From Bolinopsis microptera (Eukaryota > Ctenophora > Tentaculata > Lobata > Bolinopsidae), in contig NC_087073.1 in NCBI RefSeq assembly GCF_026151205.1, positions 19,916,658 to 19,980,657 of the forward strand: DNA of 64,000 nt, read 5' to 3'. The notes beneath the pieces are model-generated. The model saw only the letters and a program-made list of their open reading frames with translations, searched no databases and was not told where the DNA came from. Shown one piece after another: positions 25,698 through 55,465 of this stretch (within the stretch, counting starts at the first letter, position 1; each line of letters opens with the position of its first letter). The translations under genes and the position numbers were made by a program.

Positions 25698-26066
25698 ACC
25701 CGTTGACTATAATATACATAAAACATTATCGATTTTTACAATCTACACACTATTTTCAACTCACCCTGCATGCCCACTTTTATGTCAGTACAACCTCCTA
25801 GCTCTTTCCACCGACCTCAATCTCATTAAGGAAACTCCAGCACTAGCTAACTGCAGCTCTAGCTATCTTCTGCTATTATCCTTTCCCTCCAATATTAGCT
25901 CTTTCCACTGACCTCAATCTCATCAAGTAAATTCCGGTTTTAGCAACCTTCAGTTATCTCTAGGCTCCAACTCTACCCTGTTGCTGCCCTCTTCAACTAA
26001 TTGTAGCTTCTAGCCTGTTAGCTATCACCAGTATCCTACAAATCTAAATTTTATAGCAACCTTTTG

Positions 26067-27339: not shown

Positions 27340-27398
27340 GGCCTCCTGCTTCAGCTGGACTTTGCTAGATGAGGTTGTACTGACATAAAAGTGGGCAT

Positions 27399-28596
27399 AT
27401 ATTATAGTCGACGGGTACTGAAATGAGCTTAACTAGAGATAGCTGCCCGGCGGGTTGTTTGTGATTACTAAGATGAGCTGATGAGTGATGGTGCTGGTTC
27501 ATAAATGCGGTAGTGTTGAACCTTTGTTGTATTTTTAAGCGCAAGATATACGTATTTAAAAATCATGTTTTAAAAATAAATATCTCAAAAACTATGCACT
27601 ATAGACCCCATACTGCTTCATAGCTTGTATATAAATATCAATATGGCCATTCTGCTGTAGTGGTTATCTTGAAAGTCCTACAATATTCAGGAGCTGAGAT
27701 GGATAGAAAAATCTTATATTTGCGCCTGAGGGCAATGTAGAAATTTTATTACCTAGGCCAGGGTTGGACTACTGAGTAAAGTGGGCACCCAAAATCAAAT
27801 TATTCTAGCCCAGAATGACCTTTAGACCTTACGAAGGACACTGTGTCGAGTAAAAATTTATACATTGATGTGCCTACTTGACTTAAGCTAGCTGCTAGGG
27901 AAGTTTTTTTTAAAAAAGGCCCATGGGTGAATATGGGTTAATGCGCTTCAGTAAATTATATCAGTTTTTCTCATTTTTATCCAAAAGTAAGTCCTGGAGA
28001 GCTTCAGCACCTTAATAGTGTCAATATAAACTTACATATTGCGGTAATTTTAAGCCCAAAATTAAGTTTCTACGGCCTTCAGAAGCTGAGATAAAAATTT
28101 CTCACATACGCGCCTAATATGAAATATGGGCGTGGTTCCCCAAGGCTGAACTAATGGCTCAACATGCCCAATTAATTGAATTAAGTTACTTATATAACCT
28201 ATTTAACTTGATTCAGCAGTCTAAATACAAACTAAACACCTCCCTGCTGCTAGAGTAAAAAACTTCGAATTTTCCGAATTTTCTGCCAAAAATTGTGTAA
28301 ATGGGCGTGGTCAGGGTACCACTACACTTTTATTTACCCAAATTTTATTTTATGATGTTCTAGTAATACCGATGGCATCATATCAAGCCATTTAGAGACC
28401 CCCATCAAATATTATAGGCAAATTTCAATAATTTTGGGAAAATTTTCCCACGCTTTAAAAAGGGCGTGGTCACGGGTTTAAACAAACATAAAAAATTATC
28501 CACCCAAATTTTTTTTGAAGTAGAGACCCTAGGGAGCACAAATAACATCTCAAACCTTCTAAACTCGCTAAGTTGTGCCAGGTTTTGACCAGATAC
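27399..28596 (-). repeat. right arm of the 4.1-kb inverted repeat
   Basis: Inverted partner of 24501-25697, nearly the same length (1198 against 1197 bp), with scattered substitutions. It carries no gene. The central part (25698-27398) lies between the arms. Confidence 0.9.
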
Positions 28597-35122: not shown

Positions 35123-35222
35123 NNNNNNNNNNNNNNNNNNNNNNNNNNNNNNNNNNNNNNNNNNNNNNNNNNNNNNNNNNNNNNNNNNNNNNNNNNNNNN
35201 NNNNNNNNNNNNNNNNNNNNNN
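35123..35222. other. assembly gap (100 N)
   Basis: Exactly 100 N, the usual placeholder for a gap of unknown size. Order across it depends on scaffolding. Confidence 0.99.
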
Positions 35223-35573
35223 TTATATGCATGTTTTAATAACAATAAATAGTTGGTTTTAGTAACAATAAATAGTAAGTTTTCGTAACAAAAAAAATGT
35301 AAAAATAAAAATAGTACGTTGAACTTAAAACTGTTCTGTATTGCGGTCGGCTGCTGCAATGTAATATATTGAGTGTGGAGTATTGAGACGCTTATATTAT
35401 ATGCTATTGTATAAAAAATGGATTTAAAGATCATTAGCTGGTATAAAAAAACGTCAAAGAAATGAAAAAAAATTCGGATTTTTGATGGTTTTGAATGCCT
35501 TCTAGCGTTCATATTAATGTCCGTTCATAATAATGTCCGTTCATTTAATGTCCGTCCAAATAAGGTCCGATAA

Positions 35574-35745
35574 GGTAAGTTGACAATAGTGGTAATATGT
35601 TGGTTGTCGAATATGTCGTTGACGGAGAGGTAGTAGTCCTGAAAGTACCGCCCCATCAACTGTAAAATGGCTGGATACTGCCCGAGGAAGTTTAAGCATG
35701 CACTCGGGTTTGATTTGCAAATAGTATGGAGGTGTTTGTCAACAT
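35574..35745 (-). mobile_element. LINE 3' remnant, array copy 1
   Basis: Minus-strand reading DKHLHTICKSNPSACLNFLG and DYYLSVNDIFDN matches the C-terminal end of the LINE ORF at 22960-23165, with the zinc-knuckle middle deleted. Confidence 0.85.
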
Positions 35746-36470
35746 TTATATACAACGTATGAACTATGAAGCAAAAAATGCCAAAAATGCCTTATTTTGG
35801 ATTTATTACCCAAAAACTGATTTTCGCCCAATTTTGCTAACTTCTGATAGAAACCTGTTAAAGACTTATAGATGCGCTTAAACGTTGATGGTTTATAACC
35901 TACCGAACCGCGTCGAGGAAACGGCAACAAAGCTTATAGTAAAACATCTTCCAAAATGTTTCCTTCTATTCTGATGATTTTCCGTTTATCAAATCATATT
36001 CTTTGGTCATACAAGAACAATTCAGTGAAAACAGTGAAATTTGGATTTCTTCAGATATAAAGGTTTCTTCAGATATTTAGCTTCCAGTACCTCGATGGTG
36101 ACTTATGTTATTCACTGATTGATCACTATCATGGTCAAAATTCATTCAAAGTTTCGGTCAAAGAAACGGCAGAGAAGCTTCTATTTAGTTAACTGAATAA
36201 ATCAAATATTATTCAAACAGATTTCAATTTTATACTGATTTTTGCCGCATTAATAATAAAAATACTGTGTTGAGTGTATATCTATCTTCAATTTAAATTG
36301 AGTTCAATCAAATCTAAAATTAATTTATAACTTTTGCTCTGATTAAATCTACAATTTATTTTGTTCCATTCATTGTCAATGTAATTAATAAATTTGATTT
36401 CGCTCATCAGCACTGATCGTCATTTTTTAAGAGCTCTCCTTGCACTCCCTGTTATTCCATCGTCTCTGCT

Positions 36471-36650
36471 CTAATCTACACCGTCATTTTTTTCACCTTC
36501 ATCTCCATCATCGTCTCCATTATTATCTCCTTCATCATTTCCGTTTCCATCGCTATCATTGTTCCCACCGTCATCCTCAATGGCTCGCTCGTATATGTTA
36601 TCAATGAGAACGAACAACCCAGCAACGTTCTCCTCTCCAGTTTCCCTGAT
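36471..36650 (-). pseudogene. carboxypeptidase last-exon copy, unit 1
   Basis: Duplicate of the terminal exon at 51665-51844, with an intact acceptor (CCAG before ATCAGGG) and stop. It has no upstream carboxypeptidase exons here. It lies about 340 bases downstream of glycosyltransferase copy 1 and could form part of its 3' UTR. Confidence 0.85.
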
Positions 36651-36989
36651 CTGGATATACAACTAACCATTATCCTGTACAGTGTACTTCTGAATTGTAA
36701 AATTAAATTATCCTAAAACATAACATAAAATCGGTAAGCTATAACATTAACATTAGTGCTATAAGATCAGTAACTGTAAGATAAAGAAAGCAAATATAAT
36801 TATAACGTTATGAAATTAATTTCTTCTAATATTTAAGATTAATTTGTGAATCCTAAAATTGCAGTATCTCTACAAATTTTTATATAAACAAACAAAATCC
36901 CGATTCACCATAAAGTCCAGGGGTGTAGGAAGCGGGGGGGGGGGGAGCAGGGGGGGGGGCATCGCAAACGACCATTCGTAACCTTTCAC

Positions 36990-38282
36990 TTAACATTTTT
37001 TCAAAATGGTGAAATGGAAAAAATCAGCGTATAATCTTTGGAGCACGCTTCTTTTCCTTGTGGTGATTTCTAAAATCACGTGACTTAACTTTTCCGCAGT
37101 TTTCTCCCAGCTGTTCCGTAGCCCGATCTCCCTGTTTGCCTCCCCAATCTCACTTATCAGCTTCTTATTTCCCGCTAACTTCTCAAACGCTTCCAGAATA
37201 GCTCCTGCGTCTCCTGGAGGTACTTTAAGTCCATTCACACCGTTTTCAATAAGCTCATCAGGTCCCCCTACCGCAGAAACGAGCATGCAGCAACCTGCCG
37301 CCATTCCCTCAATAACCACCAGTCCAAATGCCTCATACAGCGAGGGGACCACCATTATATCCGAGGCTGCCATATACTCAACTAACTCACTCATTGGCTT
37401 TGCCCCAAGGTAGTTGAACTGGGGGTACTCTTGTAGAAGGTGCTCTGAGGGAGACTTCTCGTATTCTCCGATAAGGCGAAAAGTGAGTGGTATATTTGTT
37501 TTACTGAGTGCCTCGAGTGCAAACTTTATTCCTTTCCCCGGAGAAAATCTCCCAACGTATAGAACGTTCATAACGCTGGAAGAAAAGTTTAACTTATTTC
37601 TGGAATGTTCCTTGTCTAGATGTTTGAACTTCTCGAGCTCAATGCCTGGAGTAATGTGAGTTGCTTTTGTTGCATTGGTTAGCTCTTGTTCATTTCTAAG
37701 TTGATGAACTATGCATGATGCTTTTTTGTTAATCTTTCGCTCCACCACCATTCTTTTTTCACCAATTTCTGTTATCTGTTCCGACTGGAACTTCAGGATT
37801 CCCAAAGAATGATGAACGTGTACTTGTGGTAGTCCTAATTTAAGCCCCACATACCCACTCAACCAGTAGTTGGTGAAAACAGCTTCAAATTCAGTAGGAT
37901 CGATCTGAGAGGTGAAGTTGTCGAGGTGATAATAGACAAGGTCTTTAAAGAGATGCTGCTGGGGCCCTGCCACAATGTACTGTAGTCTGAGGGTAGAGGA
38001 CAAGGTGACCATCCCAACTTGGTCCGGGCTTTCACTTCTTGTGAATACAGTTATGTTCAAGCCTAGGGTGGACAAATGTTTGCTTACTTCTCTTACGTAA
38101 GGGACTTGACCTCCTTTTCCATAACTGAGTCTTTCGAATGGGTTATCGGCCATGGAGATAATTGCAAGACTCACTGGCTTTCTTTCTCTCATGTATAATT
38201 CAGATACCAAAACCAAAGCGATGCTAGTGGCAAAAAACTTAAACAGAGTGAGAGAGTCTTTAGCTGCTGATATCGTTATCAT
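36990..38282 (-). CDS. GT4-family glycosyltransferase with N-terminal anchor, copy 1
   Basis: Single-exon 430-codon frame. It should move a sugar from a nucleotide donor to an unidentified acceptor. Residues 10-29 form a hydrophobic segment after a short Lys-containing start, so it is probably a type II membrane protein of the secretory pathway. The GT-B fold is marked by GKGGQVPYVREV 55-66 (donor/acceptor loop as in MshA and sucrose-phosphate synthase relatives), HHSLG 157-161, VGRFSPGKG 243-251, the E-x7-E pair in EAFGLVVIE (E317, E325) and SWEKTAEKL 391-399, a signature common in bacterial GT4 enzymes. All catalytic landmarks are kept. The absence of introns next to an 11-exon gene, and the bacterial style of sequence, suggest transfer followed by gain of an anchor; a search is needed to decide. 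It carries L39, L75 and V116, like copy 2. Confidence 0.9.
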   Translation of the reverse strand: MITISAAKDSLTLFKFFATSIALVLVSELYMRERKPVSLAIISMADNPFERLSYGKGGQVPYVREVSKHLSTLGLNITVFTRSESPDQVGMVTLSSTLRLQYIVAGPQQHLFKDLVYYHLDNFTSQIDPTEFEAVFTNYWLSGYVGLKLGLPQVHVHHSLGILKFQSEQITEIGEKRMVVERKINKKASCIVHQLRNEQELTNATKATHITPGIELEKFKHLDKEHSRNKLNFSSSVMNVLYVGRFSPGKGIKFALEALSKTNIPLTFRLIGEYEKSPSEHLLQEYPQFNYLGAKPMSELVEYMAASDIMVVPSLYEAFGLVVIEGMAAGCCMLVSAVGGPDELIENGVNGLKVPPGDAGAILEAFEKLAGNKKLISEIGEANREIGLRNSWEKTAEKLSHVILEITTRKRSVLQRLYADFFHFTILKKC

Positions 38283-38893
38283 ATTTTATTATCTTTAAGC
38301 CCCTGATATTGATATTATTAATAATAAGTGATGTGTCAATATATTATGAATAAAGTAGAACAGAGTGAACGACAATACGATAAAGATGGACATCATCAGT
38401 CCCAAGGACAAAACGATAAAACATAACTGACAACTGTGATGCGGCGGACACATAACACAACTCTAAACATTATAGAAAGAGCTTACAAAATTAAAAGGTA
38501 TCATATACAAAATACATTATATAATGAGGGAACTTAACGTTATCTTTTTTTAATTTCTTTAGAGAGGCTGGACCTGGTGGCTCACGAGAGGAAAGCATGA
38601 GAGTCGGAAGATTATACAATGAGGGATCTTAATGTGTTTTCTCATTAAAAACAGATAAGTACTTGTAATCTTTTTTATTCTTTGTTATAGAGGGTGGACC
38701 TGCAGTGGCCCACGAGAAGAAAGCAGGAGGGTCGGAACAGACGGGCCTTGACTCCTACGGATCGAGTCACGTAATATATGTTCAGAGATCATGAAAGTTT
38801 TCACGTCAGTCACGAGAGTTGTCATGTCATGTGTTTAGGAGTTGTGAGAAGGATCCGGTAAAAACTACTAATCTGGCATCATTAAGCGTTTGG

Positions 38894-39065
38894 TGTAAGT
38901 TGACAATAGTGGTAATATGTTGGTTGTCGAATATGTCGTTGACGGAGAGGTAGTAGTCATGAAAGTACTGCCCCATCAACTGTAAAATGGCTGGATACTG
39001 CCCGAGAAAGTTTAAGCATGCACTCGTGTTTGATTTGCAAATAGTATGGAGGTGTTTGTCCACAT
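38894..39065 (-). mobile_element. LINE 3' remnant, array copy 2
   Basis: Same decayed LINE C-terminal piece as in the other units. It reads CKSNTSACLNFLGQYPAILQ in place of the Cys-rich knuckle. It lies upstream of glycosyltransferase copy 1. Confidence 0.85.
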
Positions 39066-39895
39066 TTATATACAACGTAATAATATGAATAAAAATATGA
39101 AGCAACAAATGCCAAAAATGCCTTATTTTGGCTTTATTGCACAAAAACTGATTTTCGCCCAATTTTGCTAACTTCTGATACCTACTGATAGAAACCTGTT
39201 AAAGACTTCTAGATGCGCTTAAACCTACCGACCCGCGTCGAGGAAACGGCAGCAAAGCTTCTAGTAAAACATCTTCCAAAATGTTTCCTTCTATTCTGAT
39301 GATTTTCTGTTTATCAAATCATATTCTTTGGTAATTTTACTTTCAGTACCCCAATCGTGTCTTGTGCCATCCACAGTTAACTCATTGGTTGGTCATTCAA
39401 GAATAATTCAATGAAAACAGTGAAATTTGGGTCGAGGAAAGCTGAAATCTGAAAATTTCCTACCGGTAGGACACTTTCATAATTTTCCTTTCATCAAAGA
39501 TTTCTTCAGATACAAAGGTTTCTTCAAATATTTAGCTGATGGTGACTTATGTTATTCACTGATTAGTGATTGATCACTATCATGGTCAAAATTCATTCAA
39601 AATTTCGGTCAAAGAAACGGCAGAGAAGCTTTTATTTAGGTAACTGAATAAATCAAATATTTTTTAACAGATTTCAATTTTATACTGATTTTTGTCAAGT
39701 GCATATCTATCTTCAATTTAAATTGAGTTCAATCAAATCTAAAATTAATTTATAACTTTTGCTCTGATTAAATCTACAATTTATTTTGTTCCATTCATTG
39801 TCAATGTAATTAATAATTTCGATTTCGCTCATCAGCACTGATCGTCATTTTTCAAGAGCTCTCCTTGCACTCCCTGTTATTCCATCGTCTCTGCT

Positions 39896-40075
39896 CTAAT
39901 CTACACCGTCATTTTTTCCACCTTCATCTCCATCATCGTCTCCATTATTATCTCCTTCATCATTTCCGTTTCCATCGCTATCATTGTTCCCACCGTCATC
40001 CTCAATGGCTCGCTCGTATATGTTATCAATGAGAACGAACAACCCAGCAACGTTCTCCTCTCCAGTTTCCCTGAT
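39896..40075 (-). pseudogene. carboxypeptidase last-exon copy, unit 2
   Basis: Intact acceptor and stop. It differs from copies 1, 4 and 5 by Gly for Glu in the tail (DEGGKNDGVD), a change shared with copy 3. Confidence 0.85.
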
Positions 40076-41619
40076 CTGGATATACAACTAACCATTATCC
40101 TGTACAGTGTACTTCTGAATTGTAAAATTATATTATCCTAAAACATAACATAAAATCGGTAAGCTATAACATTAACATTAGTGCTATAAGATCAGTAACT
40201 GTAAGATAAAGAAAGCAAATATAATTATAACGTTATGAAATTAATTTCTTCTAATATTTAAGATTAATTTGTGAATCCTAAAATTGCAGTATCTCTACAA
40301 ATTTTTATATAAACAAACAAAATCCCGATTCACCATAAAGTCCAGGGGTGTAGGAAGCGGGGGGGGGGGGAGCAGGGGGGGGGGCATCGCAAACGACCAT
40401 TCGTAACCTTTCACTTAACATTTTTTCAAAATGGTGAAATGGAAAAAATCAGCGTATAATCTTTGGAGCACGCTTCTTTTCCTTGTGGTGATTTCTAAAA
40501 TCACGTGACTTAACTTTTCCGCAGTTTTCTCCCAGCTGTTCCGTAGCCCGATCTCCCTGTTTGCCTCCCCAATCTCACTTATCAGCTTCTTATTTCCCGC
40601 TAACTTCTCAAACGCTTCCAGAATAGCTCCTGCGTCTCCTGGAGGTACTTTAAGTCCATTCACACCGTTTTCAATAAGCTCATCAGGTCCCCCTACCGCA
40701 GAAACGAGCATGCAGCAACCTGCCGCCATTCCCTCAATAACCACCAGTCCAAATGCCTCATACAGCGAGGGGACCACCATTATATCCGAGGCTGCCATAT
40801 ACTCAACTAACTCACTCATTGGCTTTGCCCCAAGGTAGTTGAACTGGGGGTACTCTTGTAGAAGGTGCTCTGAGGGAGACTTCTCGTATTCTCCGATAAG
40901 GCGAAAAGTGAGCGGTATATTTGTTTTACTGAGTGCCTCGAGTGCAAACTTTATTCCTTTCCCCGGAGAAAATCTCCCAACGTATAGAACGTTCATAACG
41001 CTGGAAGAAAAGTTTAACTTATTTCTGGAATGTTCCTTGTCTAGATGTTTGAACTTCTCGAGCTCAATGCCTGGAGTAATGTGAGTTGCTTTTGTTGCAT
41101 TGGTTAGCTCTTGTTCATTTCTAAGTTGATGAACTATGCATGATGCTTTTTTGTTAATCTTTCGCTCCACCACCATTCTTTTTTCACCAATTTCTGTTAT
41201 CTGTTCCGACTGGAACTTCAGGATTCCCAAAGAATGATGAACGTGTACTTGTGGTAGTCCTAATTTAAGCCCCACATACCCACTTTTTTTGATTGAATAC
41301 GCCCAATGGGCGCTGGTCTGTACCGAAATATAAAAAACATACAATATAAAATTATAGAGAAACATAGAGAATAAAATTCTAGCAAGCCTCCGAAAACTAT
41401 TTAGCATTGTGTGTCGACGTAACTAGAAAATAGCATAAAAATATGAGTTGCAGTTCAGGTTCTGTTACTTTAACATTTACCAGTCTCAGCACTGAAAAAA
41501 ACACACTAAATAAGCTTTCAACGCGGTTCATTTATTAATTGTAAAAAGTGGTAAATCTACACACGGCAACTCCAGTCAGCACCAAATAACACTCAACATA
41601 CATCATACATTAACTCTTA

Positions 41620-42567
41620 TCAGGAGCTTTGGGACGTTTGAGATGATAAGGTTTTATCAGCCGTGCAGATCTTTCTGTCGCGTATGAAATAATGTTTATT
41701 TGAGTCTTTCTGGATCATCTGTTTCATCTCCTTAACAAGTTTACTATGCGCACGCTGTTCCTCTTTGGTTCGGTCCGGTCCCAAATAAACATGTTTGAAA
41801 GAGTCACTGTCTCTGAGGTTTCGTGCACGCATCAAAATCAAGTCTACCTCACTGGCACAACCAAATTCGACCTTGATAGGCCTATTCTTACCCGGTTCCT
41901 TCCTTCCGATTCTGTAGACCTCACCAGTGCGGAGCACGGGGAAAGCGTCAGTTCCGTAAAGTATGTCCTTGACAACTTTGTTGAGCTCAAAATCGGCTTC
42001 TTTATCACTTTCATGGCAACCGTAGATCATCAAGTACTTCGATCGTTTCTTCTCTTCATTTACAGTCCTGACGGCTTGTTTGATAGAGTTTTCTGTTAAA
42101 GGTTTCCCGCTAGGACGCTGAGCAGTGTTTTTCTTGACAACATCCGTCCAACTTTTCATTTCTGATTTAACTGTCTCCTGAACTGAATTCATCTGTCCTT
42201 GTTGAGTTTCAATAATTAGTTTCTGATCCGCTATTTTCTCCGATTTCATGACATCAATTTTCCCAGCAGCACTTTTACAAAGTTCAATATTCTTCTCCGC
42301 CAATTTCATTAAGCTGCCGATGATTTTGACGAGTGGATTTTTGTTAAGTTTCATTAAAGCGGTCTCAGTAAAGTCAGATCTACATGAAACATTGGCAACC
42401 TTGAATATTTTCTGAATTTCTGATGTCATCTCATGGTCCATCGCGTTGAGCCGGTCCACTGAAAAATCCATGCTACACAGTCGGCGCTGTTGAAAGTCGA
42501 CGTGGCGAGTAACACTTTCACTGATAACGATCACTGATAAGCGAGCTAAAAAACAGTGCAAATACAA
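41620..42567 (-). CDS. retrotransposon ORF1 protein (RRM-like nucleic-acid binding)
   Basis: 315-codon frame; the natural start may be Met33 (MDFSVDRL). Residues about 75-150 are heptad-like and charged, probably a coiled coil for trimer formation. Residues about 185-260 (KYLMIYGCHESDKEADFELN, VYRIGRKEPGKNRPIKVEF) resemble the RRM-like domain of L1/CR1-type ORF1 proteins. A basic C-terminal part with HVYLGPDRTKEEQRAHSKLV and IRDRKI follows, as in such gag-like proteins. The expected role is binding element RNA in a particle. The frame is complete, so this copy is young, but no ORF2 accompanies it. Confidence 0.8.
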   Translation of the reverse strand: MYLHCFLARLSVIVISESVTRHVDFQQRRLCSMDFSVDRLNAMDHEMTSEIQKIFKVANVSCRSDFTETALMKLNKNPLVKIIGSLMKLAEKNIELCKSAAGKIDVMKSEKIADQKLIIETQQGQMNSVQETVKSEMKSWTDVVKKNTAQRPSGKPLTENSIKQAVRTVNEEKKRSKYLMIYGCHESDKEADFELNKVVKDILYGTDAFPVLRTGEVYRIGRKEPGKNRPIKVEFGCASEVDLILMRARNLRDSDSFKHVYLGPDRTKEEQRAHSKLVKEMKQMIQKDSNKHYFIRDRKICTADKTLSSQTSQSS

Positions 42568-42747
42568 ATTGGTTTACTGCGAACTGAGTGCAAATACAAA
42601 TTGGTTTACTGCGAACTGAGTGCAAATACAAATTGGTTTACTGCGAACTGATACAAATTGGTTTACTGCGAACTGAAATTGGTTTACTGCGAACTGAATT
42701 GGTTTACTGCGAACTGAATTGGTTTACTGCGAACTGAATTGGTTTAC
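42555..42747. repeat. tandem ATTGGTTTACTGCGAACTGA monomers
   Basis: Seven or eight head-to-tail copies of a 20-32 bp unit; the outer units are shorter than the inner ones. They sit at the 5' end of the ORF1 retroelement, like promoter monomers of some LINEs, but a promoter role is inference. Confidence 0.9.
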
Positions 42748-43792
42748 ACTCAACCAGTAGTTGGTGAAAACAGCTTCAAATTCAGTAGGATCGATCTGAG
42801 AGGTGAAGTTGTCGAGGTGATAATAGACAAGGTCTTTAAAGAGATGCTGCTGGGGCCCTGCCACAATGTACTGTAGTCTGAGGGTAGAGGACAAGGTGAC
42901 CATCCCAACTTGGTCCGGGCTTTCACTTCTTGTGAATACAGTTATGTTCAAGCCTAGGGTGGACAAATGTTTGCTTACTTCTCTTACGTAAGGGACTTGA
43001 CCTCCTTTTCCATAACTGAGTCTTTCGAATGGGTTATCGGCCATGGAGATAATTGCAAGACTCACTGGCTTTCTTTCTCTCATGTATAATTCAGATACCA
43101 AAACCAAAGCGATGCTAGTGGCAAAAAACTTAAACAGAGTGAGAGAGTCTTTAGCTGCTGATATCGTTATCATATTTTATTATCTTTAAGCCCCTGATAT
43201 TGATATTATTAATAATAAGTGATGTGTCAATATATTATGAATAAAGTAGAACAGAGTGAACGACAATACGATAAAGATGGACATCATCAGTCCTAAGGAC
43301 AAAACGATAAAACATAACTGACAACTGTGATGCGGTGGACGCCGGACACATAACACAACTATAAACATTATAGAAAGAGCTTACAAAATTAAAAGGTATC
43401 ATATACAAAATACATTATACAATGAGGGAACTTAACGTTATCTTTTTTTAATTTTTTTAGAGAGGCTGGACCTGGTGGCTCACGAGAGGAAAGCATGAGA
43501 GTCGGAAGATTATACAATGAGGGATCTTAATGTGTTTTCTCATTAAAAACAGATAAGTACTTGTAATCTTTTTTATTCTTTGTTATAGAGGGTGGACCTG
43601 CAGTGGCCTACGAGAAGAAAGCAGGAGGGTCGGAACAGACGGGCCTTGACTCCTACGGATCGAGTCACGTAATATATGTTCAGAGATCATGAAAGTTTTC
43701 ACGTCAGTCACGAGAGTTGTCATGTCATGTGTTTAGGAGTTGTGAGAAGGATCCGGTAAAAACTACTAATCTGGCATCATTAAGCGTTTGGT

Positions 43793-43963
43793 GTAAGTTG
43801 ACAATAGTGGTAATATGTTGGTTGTCGAATATGTCGTTGACGGAGAGGTAGTAGTCATGAAAGTACTGCCCCATCAACTGTAAAATGGCTGGATACTGCC
43901 CGAGAAAATTAAGCATGCACTCGTGTTTGATTTGCAAATAGTATGGAGGTGTTTGTCCACATT
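43793..43963 (-). mobile_element. LINE 3' remnant, array copy 3
   Basis: As in the other units, but two bases are missing near 43906 (GAAAATTAAGC), which shifts the frame. This confirms it is not under coding constraint. Confidence 0.85.
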
Positions 43964-44804
43964 TATATACAACGTAATAATATGAATAAAAATATGAAGC
44001 AACAAATGCCAAAAATGCCTTATTTTGGATTTATTGCACAAAAACTGATTTTCGCCCAATTTTGCTAACTTCTGATAGAAACCTGTTAAAGACTTCTAGA
44101 TGCGCTTAAACGTTGTTGGTTTATAACCTACCGAACCGCGTCGAGGAAACGGCAGCAAAGCTTCTAGTAAAACATCTTCCAAAATGTTTCCTTCTATTCT
44201 GATGATTTTCTGTTTATCAAATCATATTCTTTGGTCATTTTACTTTCAGTACCCCAATCGTGTCTTGTGCCATCCACAGTTAACTCATTGGTTGGTCATT
44301 CAAGAATAATTCAATGAAAACAGTGAAATTTGGGTCGAGGAAAGCTGAAATCTGAAAATTTCCTACCGGTAGGACACTTTCATAATTTTCCTTTCATCAA
44401 AGATTTCTTCAGATACAAAGGTTTCTTCAAATATTTAGCTGATGGTGACTTATGTTATTCACTGATTAGTGATTGATCACTATCATGGTCAAAATTCATT
44501 CAAAATTTCGGTCAAAGAAACGGCAGAGAAGCTTCTATTTAGTTAACTGAATAAATCAAATATTTTTTAACATATTTCAATTTTATACTGATTTATGTCA
44601 AGTGCATATCTATCTTCAATTTAAATTGAGTTCAATCGAATCTAAAATTAATTTATAACTTTTGCTCTGATTAAATCTACAATTTATTTTGTTCCATTCA
44701 TTGTCAATGTAATTAATAATTTCGATTTCGCTCATCAGCACTGATCGTCATTTTTCAAGAGCTCTCCTTGCACTCCCTGTTATTGATATTCCATCGTCTC
44801 TGCT

Positions 44805-44984
44805 CTAATCTACACCGTCATTTTTTCCACCTTCATCTCCATCATCGTCTCCATTATTATCTCCTTCATCATTTCCGTTTCCATCGCTATCATTGTTCCC
44901 ACCGTCATCCTCAATGGCTCGCTCGTATATGTTATCAATGAGAACGAACAACCCAGCAACGTTCTCCTCTCCAGTTTCCCTGAT
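44805..44984 (-). pseudogene. carboxypeptidase last-exon copy, unit 3
   Basis: Intact acceptor and stop. The tail has DEGGKNDGVD, as in unit 2. Confidence 0.85.
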
Positions 44985-45304
44985 CTGGATATACAACTAA
45001 CCATTATCCTGTACAGTGTACTTCTGAATTGTAAAATTAAATTATCCTAAAACATAACATAAAATCGGTAAGCTATAACATTAACATTAGTGCTATAAGA
45101 TCAGTAACTGTAAGATAAAGAAAGCAAATATAATTATAACGTTATGAAATTAATTTCTTCTAATATTTAAGATTAATTTGTGAATCCTAAAATTGCAGTA
45201 TCTCTATAAATTTTTATATAAACAAACAAAATCCCGATTCACCATAAAGTCCAGGGGTGTAGGAAGCGGGGGGGCATCGCAAACGACCATTCGTAACCTT
45301 TCAC

Positions 45305-46597
45305 TTAACATTTTTTCAAAATGGTGAAATGGAAAAAATCAGCGTATAATCTTTGGAGCACGCTTCTTTTCCTTGTGGTGATTTCTAAAATCACGTGACT
45401 TAACTTTTCCGCAGTTTTCTCCCAGCTGTTCCGTAGCCCGATCTCCCTGTTTGCCTCCCCAATCTCACTTATCAGCTTCTTATTTCCCGCTAACTTCTCA
45501 AACGCTTCCAGAATAGCTCCTGCGTCTCCTGGAGGTACTTTAAGTCCATTCACACCGTTTTCAATAAGCTCATCAGGTCCCCCTACCGCAGAAACGAGCA
45601 TGCAGCAACCTGCCGCCATTCCCTCAATAACCACCAGTCCAAATGCCTCATACAGCGAGGGGACCACCATTATATCCGAGGCTGCCATATACTCAACTAA
45701 CTCACTCATTGGCTTTGCCCCAAGGTAGTTGAACTGGGGGTACTCTTGTAGAAGGTGCTCTGAGGGAGACTTCTCGTATTCTCCGATAAGGCGAAAAGTG
45801 AGCGGTATATTTGTTTTACTGAGTGCCTCGAGTGCAAACTTTATTCCTTTCCCCGGAGAAAATCTCCCAACGTATAGAACGTTCATAACGCTGGAAGAAA
45901 AGTTTAACTTATTTCTGGAATGTTCCTTGTCTAGATGTTTGAACTTCTCGAGCTCAATGCCTGGAGTAATGTGAGTTGCTTTTGTTGCATTGGTTAGCTC
46001 TTGTTCATTTCTAAGTTGATGAACTATGCATGATGCTTTTTTGTTAATCTTTCGCTCCACCACCATTCTTTTTTCACCAATTTCTGTTATCTGTTCCGAC
46101 TGGAACTTCAGGATTCCCAAAGAATGATGAACGTGTACTTGTGGTAGTCCTAATTTAAGCCCCACATACCCACTCAACCAGTAGTTGGTGAAAACAGCTT
46201 CAAATTCAGTCGGATCGATCTGAGAGGTGAAGTTGTCGAGGTGATAATAGAAAAGGTCTTTAAAGAGATGCTGCTGGGGCCCTGCCACAATGTACTGTAG
46301 TCTGAGGGTAGAGGACAAGGTGACCATCCCAACTTGGTCCGGGCTTTCACTTCTTGTGAATACAGTAATGTTGAAGCCTAGGGTGGACAAATGTTTGCTT
46401 ACTTCTCTTACGTAAGGGACTTGACCTCCTTTTCCATAACTGAGTCTTTCGAATGGGTTATCGGCCATGGAGATAATTGCAGGACTCACTGGCTTTCTTT
46501 CTCTCATGTATAATTCAGATACCAAAACCAAAGCGATGCTAGTGGCAAAAAACTTAAACAGAGTGAGAGAGTCTTTAGCTGCTGATATCGTTATCAT
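45305..46597 (-). CDS. GT4-family glycosyltransferase with N-terminal anchor, copy 3
   Basis: 430 codons, same domain plan and catalytic residues as copy 1. It differs at L39P, L75F and V116F, three changes shared with copy 4. The downstream G-run is short (GGGGGGG) where copies 1 and 2 have two long G-runs. This pairs copies 3 with 4 and 1 with 2. Probably functional. Confidence 0.9.
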   Translation of the reverse strand: MITISAAKDSLTLFKFFATSIALVLVSELYMRERKPVSPAIISMADNPFERLSYGKGGQVPYVREVSKHLSTLGFNITVFTRSESPDQVGMVTLSSTLRLQYIVAGPQQHLFKDLFYYHLDNFTSQIDPTEFEAVFTNYWLSGYVGLKLGLPQVHVHHSLGILKFQSEQITEIGEKRMVVERKINKKASCIVHQLRNEQELTNATKATHITPGIELEKFKHLDKEHSRNKLNFSSSVMNVLYVGRFSPGKGIKFALEALSKTNIPLTFRLIGEYEKSPSEHLLQEYPQFNYLGAKPMSELVEYMAASDIMVVPSLYEAFGLVVIEGMAAGCCMLVSAVGGPDELIENGVNGLKVPPGDAGAILEAFEKLAGNKKLISEIGEANREIGLRNSWEKTAEKLSHVILEITTRKRSVLQRLYADFFHFTILKKC

Positions 46598-47217
46598 ATT
46601 TTATTATCTTTAAGCCCCTGATATTGATATTATTAATAATAAGTGATGTGTCAATATATTATGAATAAAGTAGAACAGAGTGAACGACAATACGATAAAG
46701 ATGGACATCATCAGTCCTAAGGACAAAACGATAAAACATAACTGACAACTGTGATGCGGTGGACGCCGGACACATAACACAACTATAAACATTATAGAAA
46801 GAGCTTACAAAATTAAAAGGTATCATATACAAAATACATTATACAATGAGGGAACTTAACGTTATATTTTTTTAATTTCTTTAGAGAGGCTGGACCTGGT
46901 GGCTCACGAGAGGAAAGCATGAGAGTCGGAAGATTATACAATGAGGGATCCTAATGTGTTTTCTCATTAAAAACAGATAAGTACTTGTAATCTTTTTTAT
47001 TCTTTGTTATAGAGGGTGGACCTGCAGTGGCCCACGAGAAGAAAGCAGGAGGGTCGGAACAGACGGGCCTTGACTCCTACGGATCGAGTCACGTAATATA
47101 TGTTCAGAGATCATGAAAGTTTTCACGTCAGTCACGAGAGTTGTCATGTCATGTGTTTAGGAGTTGTGAGAAGGATCCGGTAAAAACTACTAATCTGGCA
47201 TCATTAAGCGTTTGGTG

Positions 47218-47390
47218 TAAGTTGACAATAGTGGTAATATGTTGGTTGTCGAATATGTCGTTGACGGAGAGGTAGTAGTCATGAAAGTACTGCCCCATCA
47301 ACTGTAAAATGGCTGGATATTGCCCGAGAAAGTTTAAGCATGCACTCGTGTTTGATTTGCAAATAGTATGGAGGTGTTTGTCCACATTTA
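47218..47390 (-). mobile_element. LINE 3' remnant, array copy 4
   Basis: Same remnant as in the other units, almost identical to copy 5. Confidence 0.85.
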
Positions 47391-48234
47391 TATACAACGT
47401 AATAATATGAATAAAAATATGAAGCAACAAATGCCAAAAATGCCTTATTTTGGATTTATTGCACAAAAACTGATTTTCGCCCAATTTTGCTAACTTCTGA
47501 TAGAAACCTGTTAAAGACTTCTAGATGCCGTTAAACGTTGTTGGTTTATAACCTACCGACCCGCGTCGAGGAAACGGCAGCAAAGCTTCTAGTAAAACAT
47601 CTTCCAAAATGTTTCCTTCTATTCTGATGATTTTCTATTTATCAAATCATATTCTTTGGTCATTTTACTTTCAGTACCCCAATCGTGTCTTGTGCCATCC
47701 ACAGTTAACTCATTGGTTGGTCATTCAAGAATAATTCAATGAAAACAGTGAAATTTGGGTCGAGGAAAGCTGAAATCTGAAAATTTCCTACCGGTAGGAC
47801 ACTTTCATAATTTTCCTTTCATCAAAGATTTCTTCAGATACAAAGGTTTCTTCAAATATTTAGCTGATGGTGACTTATGTTATTCACTGATTAGTGATTG
47901 ATCACTATCATGGTCAAAATTCATTCAAAATTTCGGTCAAAGAAACGGCAGAGAAGCTTCTATTTAGTTAACTGAATAAATCAAATATTTTTTAACAGAT
48001 TTCAATTGTATACTGATTTTTGTCAAGTGCATATCTAATCTATCTTCAATTTAAATTGAGTTCAATCGAATCTAAAATTAATTTATAACTTTTGCTCTGA
48101 TTAAATCTACAATTTATTTTGTTCCATTCATTGTCAATGTAATTAATAATTTCGATTTCGCTCATCAGCACTGATCGTCATTTTTCAAGAGCTCTCCTTG
48201 CACTCCCTGTTATTGATATTCCATCGTCTCTGCT

Positions 48235-48414
48235 CTAATCTACACCGTCATTTTTTTCACCTTCATCTCCATCATCGTCTCCATTATTATCTCCTTCATC
48301 ATTTCCGTTTCCATCGCTATCATTGTTCCCACCGTCATCCTCAATGGCTCGCTCGTATATGTTATCAATGAGAACGAACAACCCAGCAACGTTCTCCTCT
48401 CCAGTTTCCCTGAT
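48235..48414 (-). pseudogene. carboxypeptidase last-exon copy, unit 4
   Basis: Intact acceptor and stop. The tail reads DEGEKNDGVD, as in units 1 and 5. Confidence 0.85.
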
Positions 48415-48734
48415 CTGGATATACAACTAACCATTATCCTGTACAGTGTACTTCTGAATTGTAAAATTAAATTATCCTAAAACATAACATAAAATCGGTA
48501 AGCTATAACATTAACATTAGTGCTATAAGATCAGTAACTGTAAGATAAAGAAAGCAAATATAATTATAACGTTATGAAATTAATTTCTTCTAATATTTAA
48601 GATTAATTTGTGAATCCTAAAATTGCAGTATCTCTATAAATTTTTATATAAACAAACAAAATCCCGATTCACCATAAAGTCCAGGGGTGTAGGAAGCGGG
48701 GGGGCATCGCAAACGACCATTCGTAACCTTTCAC

Positions 48735-50027
48735 TTAACATTTTTTCAAAATGGTGAAATGGAAAAAATCAGCGTATAATCTTTGGAGCACGCTTCTTTT
48801 CCTTGTGGTGATTTCTAAAATCACGTGACTTAACTTTTCCGCAGTTTTCTCCCAGCTGTTCCGTAGCCCGATCTCCCTGTTTGCCTCCCCAATCTCACTT
48901 ATCAGCTTCTTATTTCCCGCTAACTTCTCAAACGCTTCCAGAATAGCTCCTGCGTCTCCTGGAGGTACTTTAAGTCCATTCACACCGTTTTCAATAAGCT
49001 CATCAGGTCCCCCTACCGCAGAAACGAGCATGCAGCAACCTGCCGCCATTCCCTCAATAACCACCAGTCCAAATGCCTCATACAGCGAGGGGACCACCAT
49101 TATATCCGAGGCTGCCATATACTCAACTAACTCACTCATTGGCTTTGCCCCAAGGTAGTTGAACTGGGGGTACTCTTGTAGAAGGTGCTCTGAGGGAGAC
49201 TTCTCGTATTCTCCGATAAGGCGAAAAGTGAGCGGTATATTTGTTTTACTGAGTGCCTCGAGTGCAAACTTTATTCCTTTCCCCGGAGAAAATCTCCCAA
49301 CGTATAGAACGTTCATAACGCTGGAAGAAAAGTTTAACTTATTTCTGGAATGTTCCTTGTCTAGATGTTTGAACTTCTCGAGCTCAATGCCTGGAGTAAT
49401 GTGAGTTGCTTTTGTTGCATTGGTTAGCTCTTGTTCATTTCTAAGTTGATGAACTATGCATGATGCTTTTTTGTTAATCTTTCGCTCCACCACCATTCTT
49501 TTTTCACCAATTTCTGTTATCTGTTCCGACTGGAACTTCAGGATTCCCAAAGAATGATGAACGTGTACTTGTGGTAGTCCTAATTTAAGCCCCACATACC
49601 CACTCAACCAGTAGTTGGTGAAAACAGCTTCAAATTCAGTCGGATCGATCTGAGAGGTGAAGTTGTCGAGGTGATAATAGAAAAGGTCTTTAAAGAGATG
49701 CTGCTGGGGCCCTGCCACAATGTACTGTAGTCTGAGGGTAGAGGACAAGGTGACCATCCCAACTTGGTCCGGGCTTTCACTTCTTGTGAATACAGTAATG
49801 TTGAAGCCTAGGGTGGACAAATGTTTGCTTACTTCTCTTACGTAAGGGACTTGACCTCCTTTTCCATAACTGAGTCTTTCGAATGGGTTATCGGCCATGG
49901 AGATAATTGCAGGACTCACTGGCTTTCTTTCTCTCATGTATAATTCAGATACCAAAACCAAAGCGATGCTAGTGGCAAAAAACTTAAACAGAGTGAGAGA
50001 GTCTTTAGCTGCTGATATCGTTATCAT
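48735..50027 (-). CDS. GT4-family glycosyltransferase with N-terminal anchor, copy 4
   Basis: 430 codons with a protein identical to copy 3 (P39, F75, F116). This is the copy nearest the carboxypeptidase gene: its ATG lies about 1.6 kb downstream of that gene's stop codon on the same strand. It may represent the original arrangement before tandem duplication. All GT4 motifs are intact. Confidence 0.9.
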   Translation of the reverse strand: MITISAAKDSLTLFKFFATSIALVLVSELYMRERKPVSPAIISMADNPFERLSYGKGGQVPYVREVSKHLSTLGFNITVFTRSESPDQVGMVTLSSTLRLQYIVAGPQQHLFKDLFYYHLDNFTSQIDPTEFEAVFTNYWLSGYVGLKLGLPQVHVHHSLGILKFQSEQITEIGEKRMVVERKINKKASCIVHQLRNEQELTNATKATHITPGIELEKFKHLDKEHSRNKLNFSSSVMNVLYVGRFSPGKGIKFALEALSKTNIPLTFRLIGEYEKSPSEHLLQEYPQFNYLGAKPMSELVEYMAASDIMVVPSLYEAFGLVVIEGMAAGCCMLVSAVGGPDELIENGVNGLKVPPGDAGAILEAFEKLAGNKKLISEIGEANREIGLRNSWEKTAEKLSHVILEITTRKRSVLQRLYADFFHFTILKKC

Positions 50028-50647
50028 ATTTTATTATCTTTAAGCCCCTGATATTGATATTATTAATAATAAGTGATGTGTCAATATATTATGAATAAAG
50101 TAGAACAGAGTGAACGACAATACGATAAAGATGGACATCATCAGTCCTAAGGACAAAACGATAAAACATAACTGACAACTGTGATGCGGTGGACGCCGGA
50201 CACATAACACAACTATAAACATTATAGAAAGAGCTTACAAAATTAAAAGGTATCATATACAAAATACATTATACAATGAGGGAACTTAACGTTATATTTT
50301 TTTAATTTCTTTAGAGAGGCTGGACCTGGTGGCTCACGAGAGGAAAGCATGAGAGTCGGAAGATTATACAATGAGGGATCCTAATGTGTTTTCTCATTAA
50401 AAACAGATAAGTACTTGTAATCTTTTTTATTCTTTGTTATAGAGGGTGGACCTGCAGTGGCCCACGAGAAGAAAGCAGGAGGGTCGGAACAGACGGGCCT
50501 TGACTCCTACGGATCGAGTCACGTAATATATGTTCAGAGATCATGAAAGTTTTCACGTCAGTCACGAGAGTTGTCATGTCATGTGTTTAGGAGTTGTGAG
50601 AAGGATCCGGTAAAAACTACTAATCTGGCATCATTAAGCGTTTGGTG

Positions 50648-50820
50648 TAAGTTGACAATAGTGGTAATATGTTGGTTGTCGAATATGTCGTTGACGGAGA
50701 GGTAGTAGTCATGAAAGTACTGCCCCATCAACTGTAAAATGGCTGGATATTGCCCGAGAAAGTTTAAGCATGCACTCGTGTTTGATTTGCAAATAGTATG
50801 GAGGTGTTTGTCCACATTTA
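50648..50820 (-). mobile_element. LINE 3' remnant, array copy 5
   Basis: Lies between the carboxypeptidase stop and glycosyltransferase copy 4. Because every unit has this remnant, the LINE inserted before the array expanded. Confidence 0.85.
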
Positions 50821-51542
50821 TATACAACGTAATAATATGAATAAAAATATGAAGCAACAAATGCCAAAAATGCCTTATTTTGGATTTATTGCACAAAAAC
50901 TGATTTTCGCCCAATTTTGCTAACTTCTGATAGAAACCTGTTAAAGACTTCTAGATGCGCTTAAACGTTGTTGGTTTATAACCTACCGAACCGCGTCGAG
51001 GAAACGGCAGCAAAGCTTCTAGTAAAACATCTTCCAAAATGTTTCCTTCTATTCTGATGATTTTCTGTTTATCAAATCATATTCTTTGGTCATTTTACTT
51101 TCAGTACCCCAATCGTGTCTTGTGCCATCCACAGTTAACTCATTGGTTGGTCATTCAAGAATAATTCAATGAAAACAGTGAAATTTGGGTCGAGGAAAGC
51201 TGAAATCTGAAAATTTCCTACCGGTAGGACACTTTCATAATTTTCCTTTCATCAAAGATTTCTTCAGATACAAAGGTTTCTTCAAATATTTAGCTGATGG
51301 TGACTTATGTTATTCACTGATTAGTGATTGATCACTATCATGGTCAAAATTCATTCAAAATTTCGGTCAAAGAAACGGCAGAGAAGCTTCTATTTAGTTA
51401 ACTGAATAAATCAAATATTTTTTAACAGATTTCAATTTTATACTGATTTTTGTCAAGTGCATATCTTATCTATCTTCAATTTAAATTGAGTTCAATCGAA
51501 TCTAAAATTAATTTATAACTTTTGCTCTGATTAAATCTACAA

Positions 51543-51548
51543 TTTATT
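51543..51548 (-). terminator. candidate poly(A) signal for the carboxypeptidase gene
   Basis: AATAAA on the minus strand, about 117 bases past the stop codon. It lies inside the repeated unit, so equivalent signals follow each last-exon copy. Confidence 0.5.
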
Positions 51549-51664
51549 TTGTTCCATTCATTGTCAATGTAATTAATAATTTCGATTTCGCTCATCAGCA
51601 CTGATCGTCATTTTTCAAGAGCTCTCCTTGCACTCCCTGTTATTGATATTCCATCGTCTCTGCT

Positions 51665-54600
51665 CTAATCTACACCGTCATTTTTTTCACCTTCATCTCC
51701 ATCATCGTCTCCATTATTATCTCCTTCATCATTTCCGTTTCCATCGCTATCATTGTTCCCACCGTCATCCTCAATGGCTCGCTCGTATATGTTATCAATG
51801 AGAACGAACAACCCAGCAACGTTCTCCTCTCCAGTTTCCCTGATCTGGATATACAACTAATCATTATCCTGTTCAGTGTACTTCTAACTAGGCAAGTAAT
51901 ATTTGAAAAATTTAAAGCACATATTTTGTATGAAAAAACACCACATCAATAACACAGTTATTGTTACTTTATACTTCTCCCTCAGAGGAAAGGTGAAATC
52001 TATTTGAAGGATTAAAGACACCGCAGGACTGAAAAAAGTGTGGCGGAAAAGATACGATGAGCGATGCCAGAGACCAGAATATAAATTTCCCATCGATATG
52101 TTTAACCTGATCTTTGGGGAGTAAGAAACCACAACTAATTTACCTGATCTTTGGGGAGTAAGAAACCATACTCGCTCTGACCATCTGGCCTCAGCTCGAA
52201 CCCGTAAGCATCAACCACTCCTAGTTTGTCGTAAACCCAATCAATACTGGACCCGCTCACCATGTACAAATCTACCGCCACTTGTATAACCTTGTAATCT
52301 TTCCCATGTACTCCTGTAAATTGTAATTGAGGAAAATTTGTTCGTTTATCGGAGAATGTAAAAAACTTTTAAAATTATTTTCCTTTCTGTGGCAAACAAG
52401 CAAACATGAACCGATCAATGGTTTACCTTATCGAAGCCTTTAAATGCTTAAATATAAGTGGTAAAACTCGATCATCGCCAGAGCTACACTTTGTTTTACC
52501 TTTTATAGCCTCCACAACACCTTTCCCCACCTTCATGTGGTGTTCATGGTGTGGGGGAGCTTCCTGGCTGTGTGCCCAGGGAACCAGGAACAGTTGAAGG
52601 TAAGCGTGGTACGAAACATACAAAACCAGCTTCCTGCCATGAAGATGGATTATAATCTTAGTATCTTGAGTGCTTATGTTTTTGGTGTTAGTTAGTTGGT
52701 TGATAGTTAAGCGATTGTTGTTTTCTGAATTCTAGCGTTGGTTTATAATTAATTTGCTTCAACTTTATACTAGACATGACCTTCTTCTTCGTAAGGGGGC
52801 TTACCCAGAACTTGATCAAATTGTCAGAATTAAATCAATAATTACCATACTTACTCCTTGTTTTTCTCGAGGTAGGTTTTCACAATATTGACACAAGGTT
52901 GATCCCAATATTCTTTTCCGGGAAATACGATCGTACAAGGGTTATCACTAACTCCTTTTTTGGAATCAAACTCTGCATCCCAATTTCTAAAATTTTAATT
53001 AGAGTAAAGGTTTCCTGATCATAGAAAGGGAGTCACAACTCAAACTAACCGTCAACTAAAAACACAAGGAAATATTCTCTGAACAAATGTTAAATTTGTC
53101 ATCACCTGTTGGGGTCCGCTCCCCAGCAGAAGTAATGTAAGCACCCTCCATACCACATACGCTTATTTTCTTCGCACCCTCCTACGTCAGTTCTTGTTTT
53201 TCTCCACATCCTGAAAATTCAGATTCAGAACGCAATGAACCTTGTTTAGAAGGTAGACTAAAAGAGGCATCATTTCTATTAATCTCACAATCAGTATTAT
53301 GAAAAGGTGATGGTTATTTATAAGTTTATAGTATGCAACTACCCATAACAAATCATCATTGTAAATTTATATTTATATACAAGCTATATTTATTATTTAT
53401 AGCTACAAATTTATATTTGTATACACTATATAAGCTAAATGGTATTACCATTGGTAATAAGCTTCACTTCTAACCTGTCGCAGACTTCAGTTTTCCACTG
53501 TAGTGCCCTTCCACTGTCACCATCACAGCTGAATACATACCCGTCAGGGTTGATAACCGGGGCTATTACTATTTGGTACCTGTCCAGTATAATATCAATC
53601 TGAAATAAGAGTTTACGTTTTACCGATCTTGCCATCATGCCCTACCACCTATATAAGATCCTATAACGGTCAAATTAGGTTTGTTGCTGGAGTGCAGTTT
53701 GAGTTAGAGCTATTTAAAAATTACGAACTTTACAAGTTCTCAATTTTACACTACATTGTACATACCGTGGCTTGTTGGCCTTTTTCTTCCTCCCCAAGCA
53801 TGGCATCCACAAAATACATCATTGTAGCTGATGATACCCATTCTCGAGAATGAATACCTCCGTCCAACCAGACCATTGGTTTTGAATCGGATAGTTTTGT
53901 GTTGGAAATATGGTTCGTTATACGAATCGCCTGTAATACAATGCATAAAGGTATATAATATAAGTATAATATAAGTTGAAAAGAGTAAGGTGTAAAGTTG
54001 CCTTCGAGCTCACAGTCATATCATTGCCACTATCTTTGATATGTATTTAGTTAAAGGATCTAAGTATTAAGAATCAAAATGTGATAATTATGTGAACCTT
54101 GATCTCTCGGTTTTCAAATGTTTTCCCCTCCAGAGAGAACACCTTGGCTTTATCTGAATGGGTTGCTGCTAGTGCTTCCAGTCTATCAACCATCTCTCTG
54201 AGGTGAAATCAATTGAACTGGATAGCTTAGTTTGAACCATTCAATATAGGGATGAGAATTAAGTTTTCATCGCGGCCGCCGGGATCATGGCCCTCAGAAA
54301 TATTATGTATAGTTTTTTAATTGAGCACAACTTACAAAAACTATCGTTTCAAAACGAGTCAATTCACTTCCCCTACATTATTTGCCAGACATATCATGTA
54401 AAGAAATTTGTCTACAAATAAGTATGTAATCTTACTGGTAAGAATGGTAATCATCGTGGAACGATTCGTCGATGGAAACACTGTCTGAACTCCTCCCAAG
54501 TTTAGAAATCTTTTCTTCTGCTTGTTGCTTCATGATTTTTCCGATATCATCATTCTGAATCTGGTTACGATTAGAAAATTATATCTATTATCTATAGATT

Positions 54601-55465
54601 AGAACTAATTTGAAATCCACTAAGCTTAAAACTCCTTAGATAAATCATTATATATCATCACTGAATTTATCATCGAGATTATAATTTTTCGCCTGATAAG
54701 ACGTTTAAAGATTCAAACCTTGAATTCAGCGTAGAATTTGTCCAGTGTCTCCAACACTGCACTCAGATGTTTTGGACCAACCATCAGGTCCATAATACCC
54801 CTCACTGGACACAAAACCAGGATATCTACTCTTCCTTTATTCTGGAGATGTTTAATTTCATCTACAATAACATCTGTTGAGGAACTGACTGTCACCCGCA
54901 ACACCTGAAATTAATCATATTGAGTTTGACAACAGATAGAATACCAACATCTTTACGTATCTAAAATCCTTACAATCCACGCGGCATCCAATTTGCGCTG
55001 AATGTGATGTTTATAATTGTCCAGTGGATCCAATCAAGCTTCTACGATGTCATGGACTAGTTTTACTGAAGACTGCTTTCAAGACTGATTCTAGTCTAAA
55101 ATAAACCAGTACTACAAGTATGATATAATCATTAATCATTAGGTATAGTCAAATGATAATATTGGATCCAATTGGATACCATGGAATGTTTTCTTAGGTT
55201 TCCTTGACTTTGAAGCTGCTTTACGGGGGCAACTGGGAATTATATGTACTACTAAATCAAATCTAACCTTGTAGTCGAGTCGAATGTGCAGCAAATTAAT
55301 TGGATTGGAATGTTTAAAACCCTGTAAATTTCATTGAGCAAATATGTTAGCTTCATTATTGGACCTTACCTTGAATTCGTCGTACTGAGCACATTCCACT
55401 AGCTGGACACATTGATAGCTGAGTACGATAAACAAAAGACCACGAAGTAACCTTGAAGTCACCAT
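51665..55465 (-). CDS. secreted M14A metallocarboxypeptidase, A-type (procarboxypeptidase)
   Basis: Eleven exons in phase, from 5': 55370-55465, 54719-54904, 54436-54560, 54098-54197, 53766-53930, 53475-53599, 53106-53210, 52855-52986, 52500-52633, 52144-52313, 51665-51844; 505 residues. It has a signal peptide (MVTSRLLRGLLFIVLSY), an activation propeptide (exon 2), then the catalytic domain. It removes C-terminal residues from peptides outside the cell. Zinc ligands are H and E of HSREW (exon 5) and H of YHAYLQ (exon 9). Substrate residues are WRKTR, DPNRNWD, the Tyr of VDLYMVSGSSIDW, and the catalytic Glu of GFELRP. Ile in SSIDW occupies the position that is Ile in carboxypeptidase A and Asp in B, so hydrophobic C-termini are expected. 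The last exon adds an unusual tail of about 35 Asp/Asn/Gly-rich residues. That exon is the nearest copy of the tandem array. Start: first ATG, followed by a good signal peptide. Confidence 0.93.
52106..52168 (-). repeat. duplicated 3' end of carboxypeptidase exon 10
   Basis: The 26-base segment beginning CCTGATCTTTGGGGAGTAAG occurs at 52106-52131 and 52143-52168. It repeats the last bases of exon 10, with its own possible donor, inside intron 10. Use of the outer copy would add an in-frame stop (GTAAATTAG) after DQ. Confidence 0.85.

Follow-up and report, generated by a model that had tools for sequence, protein, structure and literature searches.

In Saccharomyces cerevisiae, each type 1 repeat of the CUP1 array contains a small gene together with YHR054C, a sequence that equals the terminal 1 kb of RSC30; RSC30 itself is present in full at one end of the array (PMC4232551). 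At the junction, the inside of the neighbouring gene is joined to an intergenic flank, and the origin inferred in that study is a nonhomologous join with unequal crossover afterwards (PMC4232551). Partial duplication of neighbouring genes is described as common in multicellular eukaryotes (PMC3449122). Here we analysed a stretch of 64,000 bases from contig NC_087073.1 (hereafter, the window; position 1 is its first letter), in which a family 4 glycosyltransferase gene (GT4) forms a head-to-tail array whose units also include the last exon of a neighbouring M14 carboxypeptidase gene. As in the CUP1 type 1 array, every unit contains the terminal part of the neighbour, and the full neighbour stands at one end of the array. 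In contrast to CUP1, what has been copied here is a single spliced exon from a gene with many introns, one GT4 copy is broken, and the array is truncated at its far edge. Furthermore, the CUP1-type single-copy flank of the amplified gene is not found at the other end, where the array stops in a segment (R1) truncated inside the remnant of a long interspersed nuclear element (LINE). Because the architecture resembles that of CUP1 type 1 and partial duplication of neighbours is common, we classify the array, by analogy, as an ordinary and known kind of local gene amplification. We consider it likely that a single tandem duplication was followed by exchange between copies, truncation of unit 1 and an insertion into copy 2, and that GT4 encodes a working transferase.

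Self-comparison of the window detected a head-to-tail array with a period of 3.43 kb at positions 35575 to 51885 (BLAST E-values between units, 0.0 to 7e-155). The units, numbered from left to right, start at 35575, 38895, 43793, 47217 and 50647, and their lengths are 3320, 4898, 3424, 3430 and 1239 bp, respectively; unit 2 without its insert measures 3432 bp. Identity over aligned bases in the ten unit pairs ranged from 96.9% (units 1 and 5) to 99.7% (units 3 and 4). The natural unit consists of the last exon, the LINE remnant and GT4, and is present as four full copies and a truncated fifth at the left edge. The segment order along the array is R-GT-R-GT-R-GT-R-GT-R, and both ends of the array fall in R. 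All segments are on the minus strand. At the right, R5 (50647-51885) comprises the last exon of the carboxypeptidase gene, its 3′ untranslated region and the LINE remnant, and runs on into the gene. To its left lie GT4 segment 4 (48456-50646), R4 (47217-48455), GT4 segment 3 (45026-47216), R3 (43793-45025), GT4 segment 2 (40117-43792), R2 (38895-40116), GT4 segment 1 (36692-38894) and R1 (35575-36691). In R1, an orphan last exon is followed by a diverged 3′ region, which stops within the LINE remnant. Flank F (35223-35574), which is AT-rich and has short tandem repeats at both ends, is located between the truncated unit and an assembly gap of 100 N (35123-35222). Flank F has no other match in the window, and it stands where the other units continue past the LINE remnant. 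An earlier note on this DNA, made from its letters, had described five head-to-tail units of about 3.43 kb, each with the terminal carboxypeptidase exon and a LINE remnant, and a complete GT4 in four of them. The array is present, although the units are not of one length; the exon was found in all five units, and the LINE remnant is borne out by the alignments given below.

GT4 is complete in three of the four units, contrary to that note. The intact coding sequences are 36990-38282 (copy 1), 45305-46597 (copy 3) and 48735-50027 (copy 4), and each encodes 430 amino acids. As the note had stated, the proteins from units 3 and 4 are identical (0 differences), and units 1 and 2 share L39, L75 and V116; the long G-runs of the note correspond to a 19-base G-rich stretch that these two units have in common. 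Copies 1 and 4 differ by L39P, L75F and V116F and at three silent sites (3 synonymous and 3 nonsynonymous differences). Copy 2 is split into open pieces at 42724-43173 and 40415-41284 by a retroelement-like insert of about 1.46 kb (41285-42746, minus strand). The insert has a 4-base flanking duplication and a short A-run at its 3′ end, as is expected of a retroelement without long terminal repeats, and its 5′ end contains tandem repeats (20 and 32 bases). Its internal repeats aside, the window has no second copy of it. Its single open frame has 317 codons (41623-42573) and gave one weak and implausible match to Pfam (E 0.029); a structure model of this frame was discarded (predicted local distance difference test score, pLDDT, 39.1). 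The frame may resemble ORF1 proteins. The insert is retroelement-like, its class being unproven, and might represent an element whose only protein is the first one.

Divergence within the array is a mosaic. In the GT4 segment, all eight two-to-two substitutions and the sole two-to-two insertion or deletion separate units 1 and 2 from units 3 and 4, and the GT4 segments diverge by 0 to 0.55%. Between units 1 and 2, mismatches occupy 33 of 801 sites (4.1%) up to column 1017 and 8 of 2466 sites (0.3%) beyond it. Of the 3424 sites compared between units 3 and 4, 10 are mismatched, all of them within the first 1088 columns; the 2389 sites to the right have 0 differences (both cuts were picked after the sites had been seen). 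We tested the clustering of mismatches in five unit pairs. For the pairs 1-2, 1-4 and 3-4, the observed clustering was reached in 0 of 2000 site permutations each, and for the pairs 2-3 (611 of 2000) and 2-4 (488 of 2000) the mismatches were unclustered. Over its left 1 kb, unit 1 is 3.9-4.5% divergent from the other four units. The R segments contain six two-sided differences, which group the units in four ways: units 1, 2 and 3 against 4 and 5 (two differences), units 1 and 2 against 3, 4 and 5 (two), units 2 and 3 against the rest (one), and units 2 and 4 against the rest (one). The lack of a single tree for the R segments is the pattern expected from exchange between neighbouring units. 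At the level of sequence, this mosaic divergence supports unequal crossing-over or gene conversion. Stepwise duplication or gene conversion had been suggested in the earlier note, and the split between units 1+2 and units 3+4 and the clustered mismatches are in line with it. The same note had called the amplification recent. This description suits the GT4 segment and does not suit the first duplication: because the left 1 kb of unit 1 is so diverged, the first duplication is older than the identity of the GT4 copies suggests. Selection for dosage, which was also raised there, gained no support: among the four copies one is broken, and with three silent and three replacement changes separating unit 1 from unit 4, constraint cannot be distinguished from neutrality.

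The array may in part be an assembly artefact, in which two haplotypes of a diploid genome were laid head to tail and the true copies are fewer. Units 3 and 4 would be explained as alleles most easily. False duplications are a known assembly problem (PMC9516828). The gap is 352 bp from the array, and units 3 and 4 are identical over the 2.4 kb to the right of column 1088, a cut picked post hoc; both observations would fit such an artefact. However, alleles would not readily have all ten differences clustered at the left, as units 3 and 4 do, and unique marks are found in unit 1 (the truncation), unit 2 (the insert) and unit 5 (continuity with the gene). We regard an artefact as unlikely.

The order of the segments before amplification can be approached through the LINE remnant. 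A LINE with RNase H and zf-RVT domains is located at 21929-23229 on the plus strand (open reading frame, 21929-23221), and the remnant carried by the units is similar to its 3′ end. In unit 4, positions 3-117 and 123-165 align with 23163-23049 (79%) and 23013-22971 (84%), respectively, inside the LINE frame with the RNase H domain, and all five units align with this LINE. At unit 4, the LINE homology passes from R into the GT4 upstream region (score 45; 0 of 500 shuffles as high). At unit 1, the homology into flank F had a score of 22, which 149 of 500 shuffles reached, and it stops at the left edge of the array. These tests were run at units 4 and 1; beside the boundary, units 2 and 5 read like unit 4. 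Because the homology crosses the boundary at unit 4 and does not enter flank F, the exon, the LINE remnant and the GT4 upstream region were probably contiguous before amplification, and unit 1 was altered. The ancestral order, as read from the alignments, is carboxypeptidase gene, last exon, LINE remnant and GT4. We also used the LINE to polarise five substitutions private to unit 1: three are derived in unit 1, one is derived in the others and one is undecided, numbers too small for a conclusion. Another history would be that R was duplicated first, and that GT4 subsequently entered between its copies, either through transposition or because a GT4-bearing circle integrated there. Both ends of the array fall in R, and the divergence of the left 1 kb of R1 against at most 0.55% among the GT4 copies would agree with such a history. 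However, LINE homology that spans R and the region upstream of GT4 points to one piece before amplification. We dropped the insertion of GT4 between two R copies on the basis of the unit 4 boundary, and consider this history very improbable.

The carboxypeptidase gene (51665-55465, minus strand) starts at 55465 and has about 12 exons, of which the last (51665-51844) is within unit 5. We picked the exon ends by eye from the sequence and joined the exons for a domain search. The joined exons matched PF00246 (Peptidase_M14) with an E-value of 9.1e-68 over profile positions 3-285 of 286, and this match reaches 10 residues into the last exon, which is in frame following the penultimate exon. The M14 propeptide (PF02244) scored 22.6 bits, just above the cut-off of 22.1 bits. 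The orphan last exons are at 48235-48414 (unit 4; 180 of 180 bases equal to the gene's exon), 44805-44984 (unit 3; one difference), 39896-40075 (unit 2; one difference) and 36471-36650 (unit 1; 0 differences). All five exons are preceded by CCAG, so that the acceptor AG is kept, and are open through to the same stop. Past each GT4 stop, the first AATAAA is reached after 617-630 bases. It belongs to the copied 3′ region of the carboxypeptidase gene and corresponds to 51548 in the gene itself; ATTAAA was absent between the GT4 stops and the first AATAAA. That the copied AATAAA may serve each GT4 gene as the nearest one is suggestive only. The idea that carboxypeptidase transcripts splice to any of the five last exons, with GT4 genes in the resulting introns, seems extremely unlikely to us: the exon copies do keep acceptor AG and frame with no more than 1 of 180 bases different, even in unit 1 beside the diverged 3′ region, but the conserved stretch of unit 1 begins at column 1018 and covers all of the GT4 segment, and gene conversion explains the identity of the exons without their use.

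From this anatomy, we infer a single tandem duplication with later exchange by the following steps. At the start, the LINE remnant would have separated the M14 carboxypeptidase gene from one GT4 gene, the latter lying directly downstream and in the same orientation. In a founding tandem duplication, the sequence flanking GT4 on its 3′ side would then have become linked to the carboxypeptidase gene's last intron, about 40 bases from the last exon (51885/51886). As a consequence of this junction, every unit would receive a spare last exon and 3′ end, and the complete carboxypeptidase gene would stay at the right end. The array may then have grown to no fewer than four full units through unequal crossing-over and gene conversion, which would also have made the GT4 segments more alike. 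Later, the leftmost unit would have been truncated within the LINE remnant, and the second GT4 copy broken by the insertion. The single-copy GT4 3′ flank, one parent of the founding junction, is absent from the window, where only the junction and the carboxypeptidase intron are seen. Several points weigh against this reading. The left edge lacks the single-copy GT4 flank that is expected from a simple tandem duplication, and a separate truncation must be assumed. No one tree accommodates all six of the two-sided R-segment differences. The position of AATAAA near the GT4 genes is unsurprising because 77 AATAAA are present on the minus strand of the 64,000 bases, once per about 830 bases. For the enzyme, Gly249 of GT4 takes the position of Arg253 in a cyanobacterial enzyme (Tll1590, below).

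We then considered what GT4 encodes. Its protein matched Pfam Glycos_transf_1 with 108.3 bits (cut-off, 26.4). Of 84 bacterial loci, 36 were picked for diversity and used with the query in a structure model and in a 37-row alignment. The model has the GT-B fold (pLDDT 91.1). H158, R177, R245, E317 and E325 are conserved in the 37 rows; the E-x7-E motif is at 317, with E317 and E325 invariant. The top fold matches among solved structures were MshA (E 1.4e-28) and Tll1590 (E 1.2e-27). MshA (PDB 3c48 and 3c4q), a retaining GT4 enzyme of mycothiol synthesis, is the best fold match, with a template modelling (TM) score of 0.77, 25-26% identity and a sequence match over residues 40-402. In contrast to MshA, GT4 has an extra N-terminal helix (residues 7-34 in the model), which is missing from the four bacterial proteins compared, and it scored 145.7 bits against the TIGR03449 equivalog cut-off of 462.5 bits. 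The contacts of MshA to inositol phosphate (Lys78, Tyr110, Thr134 and Arg154) would correspond, by eye, to K113, Y139, S159 and R177. Among proteins of solved structure, Tll1590, a cyanobacterial sucrose-phosphate synthase (PDB 6kih), is closest in sequence (E 6.9e-40; TM 0.80; about 30% identity). GT4 nevertheless differs from sucrose-phosphate synthases, scoring 65.3 bits against the TIGR02472 cut-off of 576. According to PMC7264703, His158 and Glu331 are essential in the cyanobacterial enzyme. By eye, His158, Glu331, Glu339, Arg249 and Arg178 of Tll1590 (residues as in PMC7264703) correspond to H158, E317, E325, R245 and R177 of GT4, and Arg105 corresponds to K113; Arg253 (G249) is not kept. 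On sequence and model, GT4 is classified as a divergent MshA/sucrose-phosphate-synthase-like GT-B protein with the catalytic residues kept, and it is most likely a working retaining glycosyltransferase. The donor is probably a nucleotide sugar linked to uridine diphosphate (UDP). A phosphorylated small molecule is favoured as the acceptor because the residues that hold the phosphate of the acceptor in Tll1590 are partly kept. The N-terminal helix may anchor the protein in a membrane.

Invertebrate proteins annotated as D-inositol-3-phosphate glycosyltransferase-like exist. A scan of 84,980 prokaryote genomes confirmed at least 522 relatives of GT4, of which the best 80 were kept; two of the four bacterial rows in the query alignment were cyanobacterial, which biases the scan toward cyanobacteria. 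Among the matches listed, the best 20 of the 84 loci by BLASTP score are cyanobacterial (29-35% identity). In a tree of 85 rows, in which GT4 is the sole eukaryotic row, the GT4 branch (length 3.93) is placed beside 22 cyanobacterial rows with support of 84/45, below the usual threshold, and the composition of GT4 fails the chi-square test. These results are suggestive of a bacterial affinity. Horizontal transfer into the lineage of GT4 is possible; it would be old if real, and is unproven. The third-position G+C fraction of GT4 is 0.46, within the range of six carboxypeptidase stretches (0.38-0.49), and therefore gives no sign of recent foreign DNA. A search for close viral relatives gave 25 pattern matches and 0 relatives. 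The best viral structure match, Yasminevirus (E 3.4e-21), is weaker than the bacterial enzymes, and a giant-virus origin was therefore set aside. In a literature search for such an enzyme in animals, we recognised no publication on this GT4 gene among the matches listed, which is not proof of absence. We tentatively suggest, as a scenario that we rather doubt, that an animal lineage acquired a cyanobacterial-type MshA/sucrose-phosphate-synthase-like transferase, added a membrane anchor, and is amplifying it tandemly with a carboxypeptidase 3′ end on each copy.

Elsewhere in the window, a tandem array with a 39-base unit at 2837-4520 is open in one frame over 556 codons. Inverted repeats of about 1.2 kb with 93.6% identity are found at 24501-25698 and 27398-28596, and others, in two pieces with 98-99% identity, at 58814-59486 and 60727-61502. 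A single open frame of 757 codons on the minus strand (19588-21858) has a NERD domain and weak P-loop NTPase matches. A disintegrin-like exon on the plus strand (11766-12071) scored 23.9 bits, below the Pfam cut-off of 35.1. This sub-threshold match and the M14 gene with its propeptide are the basis for reading the genome as probably animal. No Rfam family reached its gathering score in the window, and ARAGORN with the bacterial code found no tRNA genes there.

The history of the amplification can be read from the array: one breakpoint is marked by the copied exon, the LINE remnant indicates how the parts were originally ordered, and the mosaic differences reveal homogenisation. Of wider interest is the enzyme, because a genome that is probably animal here encodes an MshA/sucrose-phosphate-synthase-like transferase. 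If the proposed function is true, GT4 would be an animal enzyme that links a UDP-sugar to a phosphorylated small acceptor.

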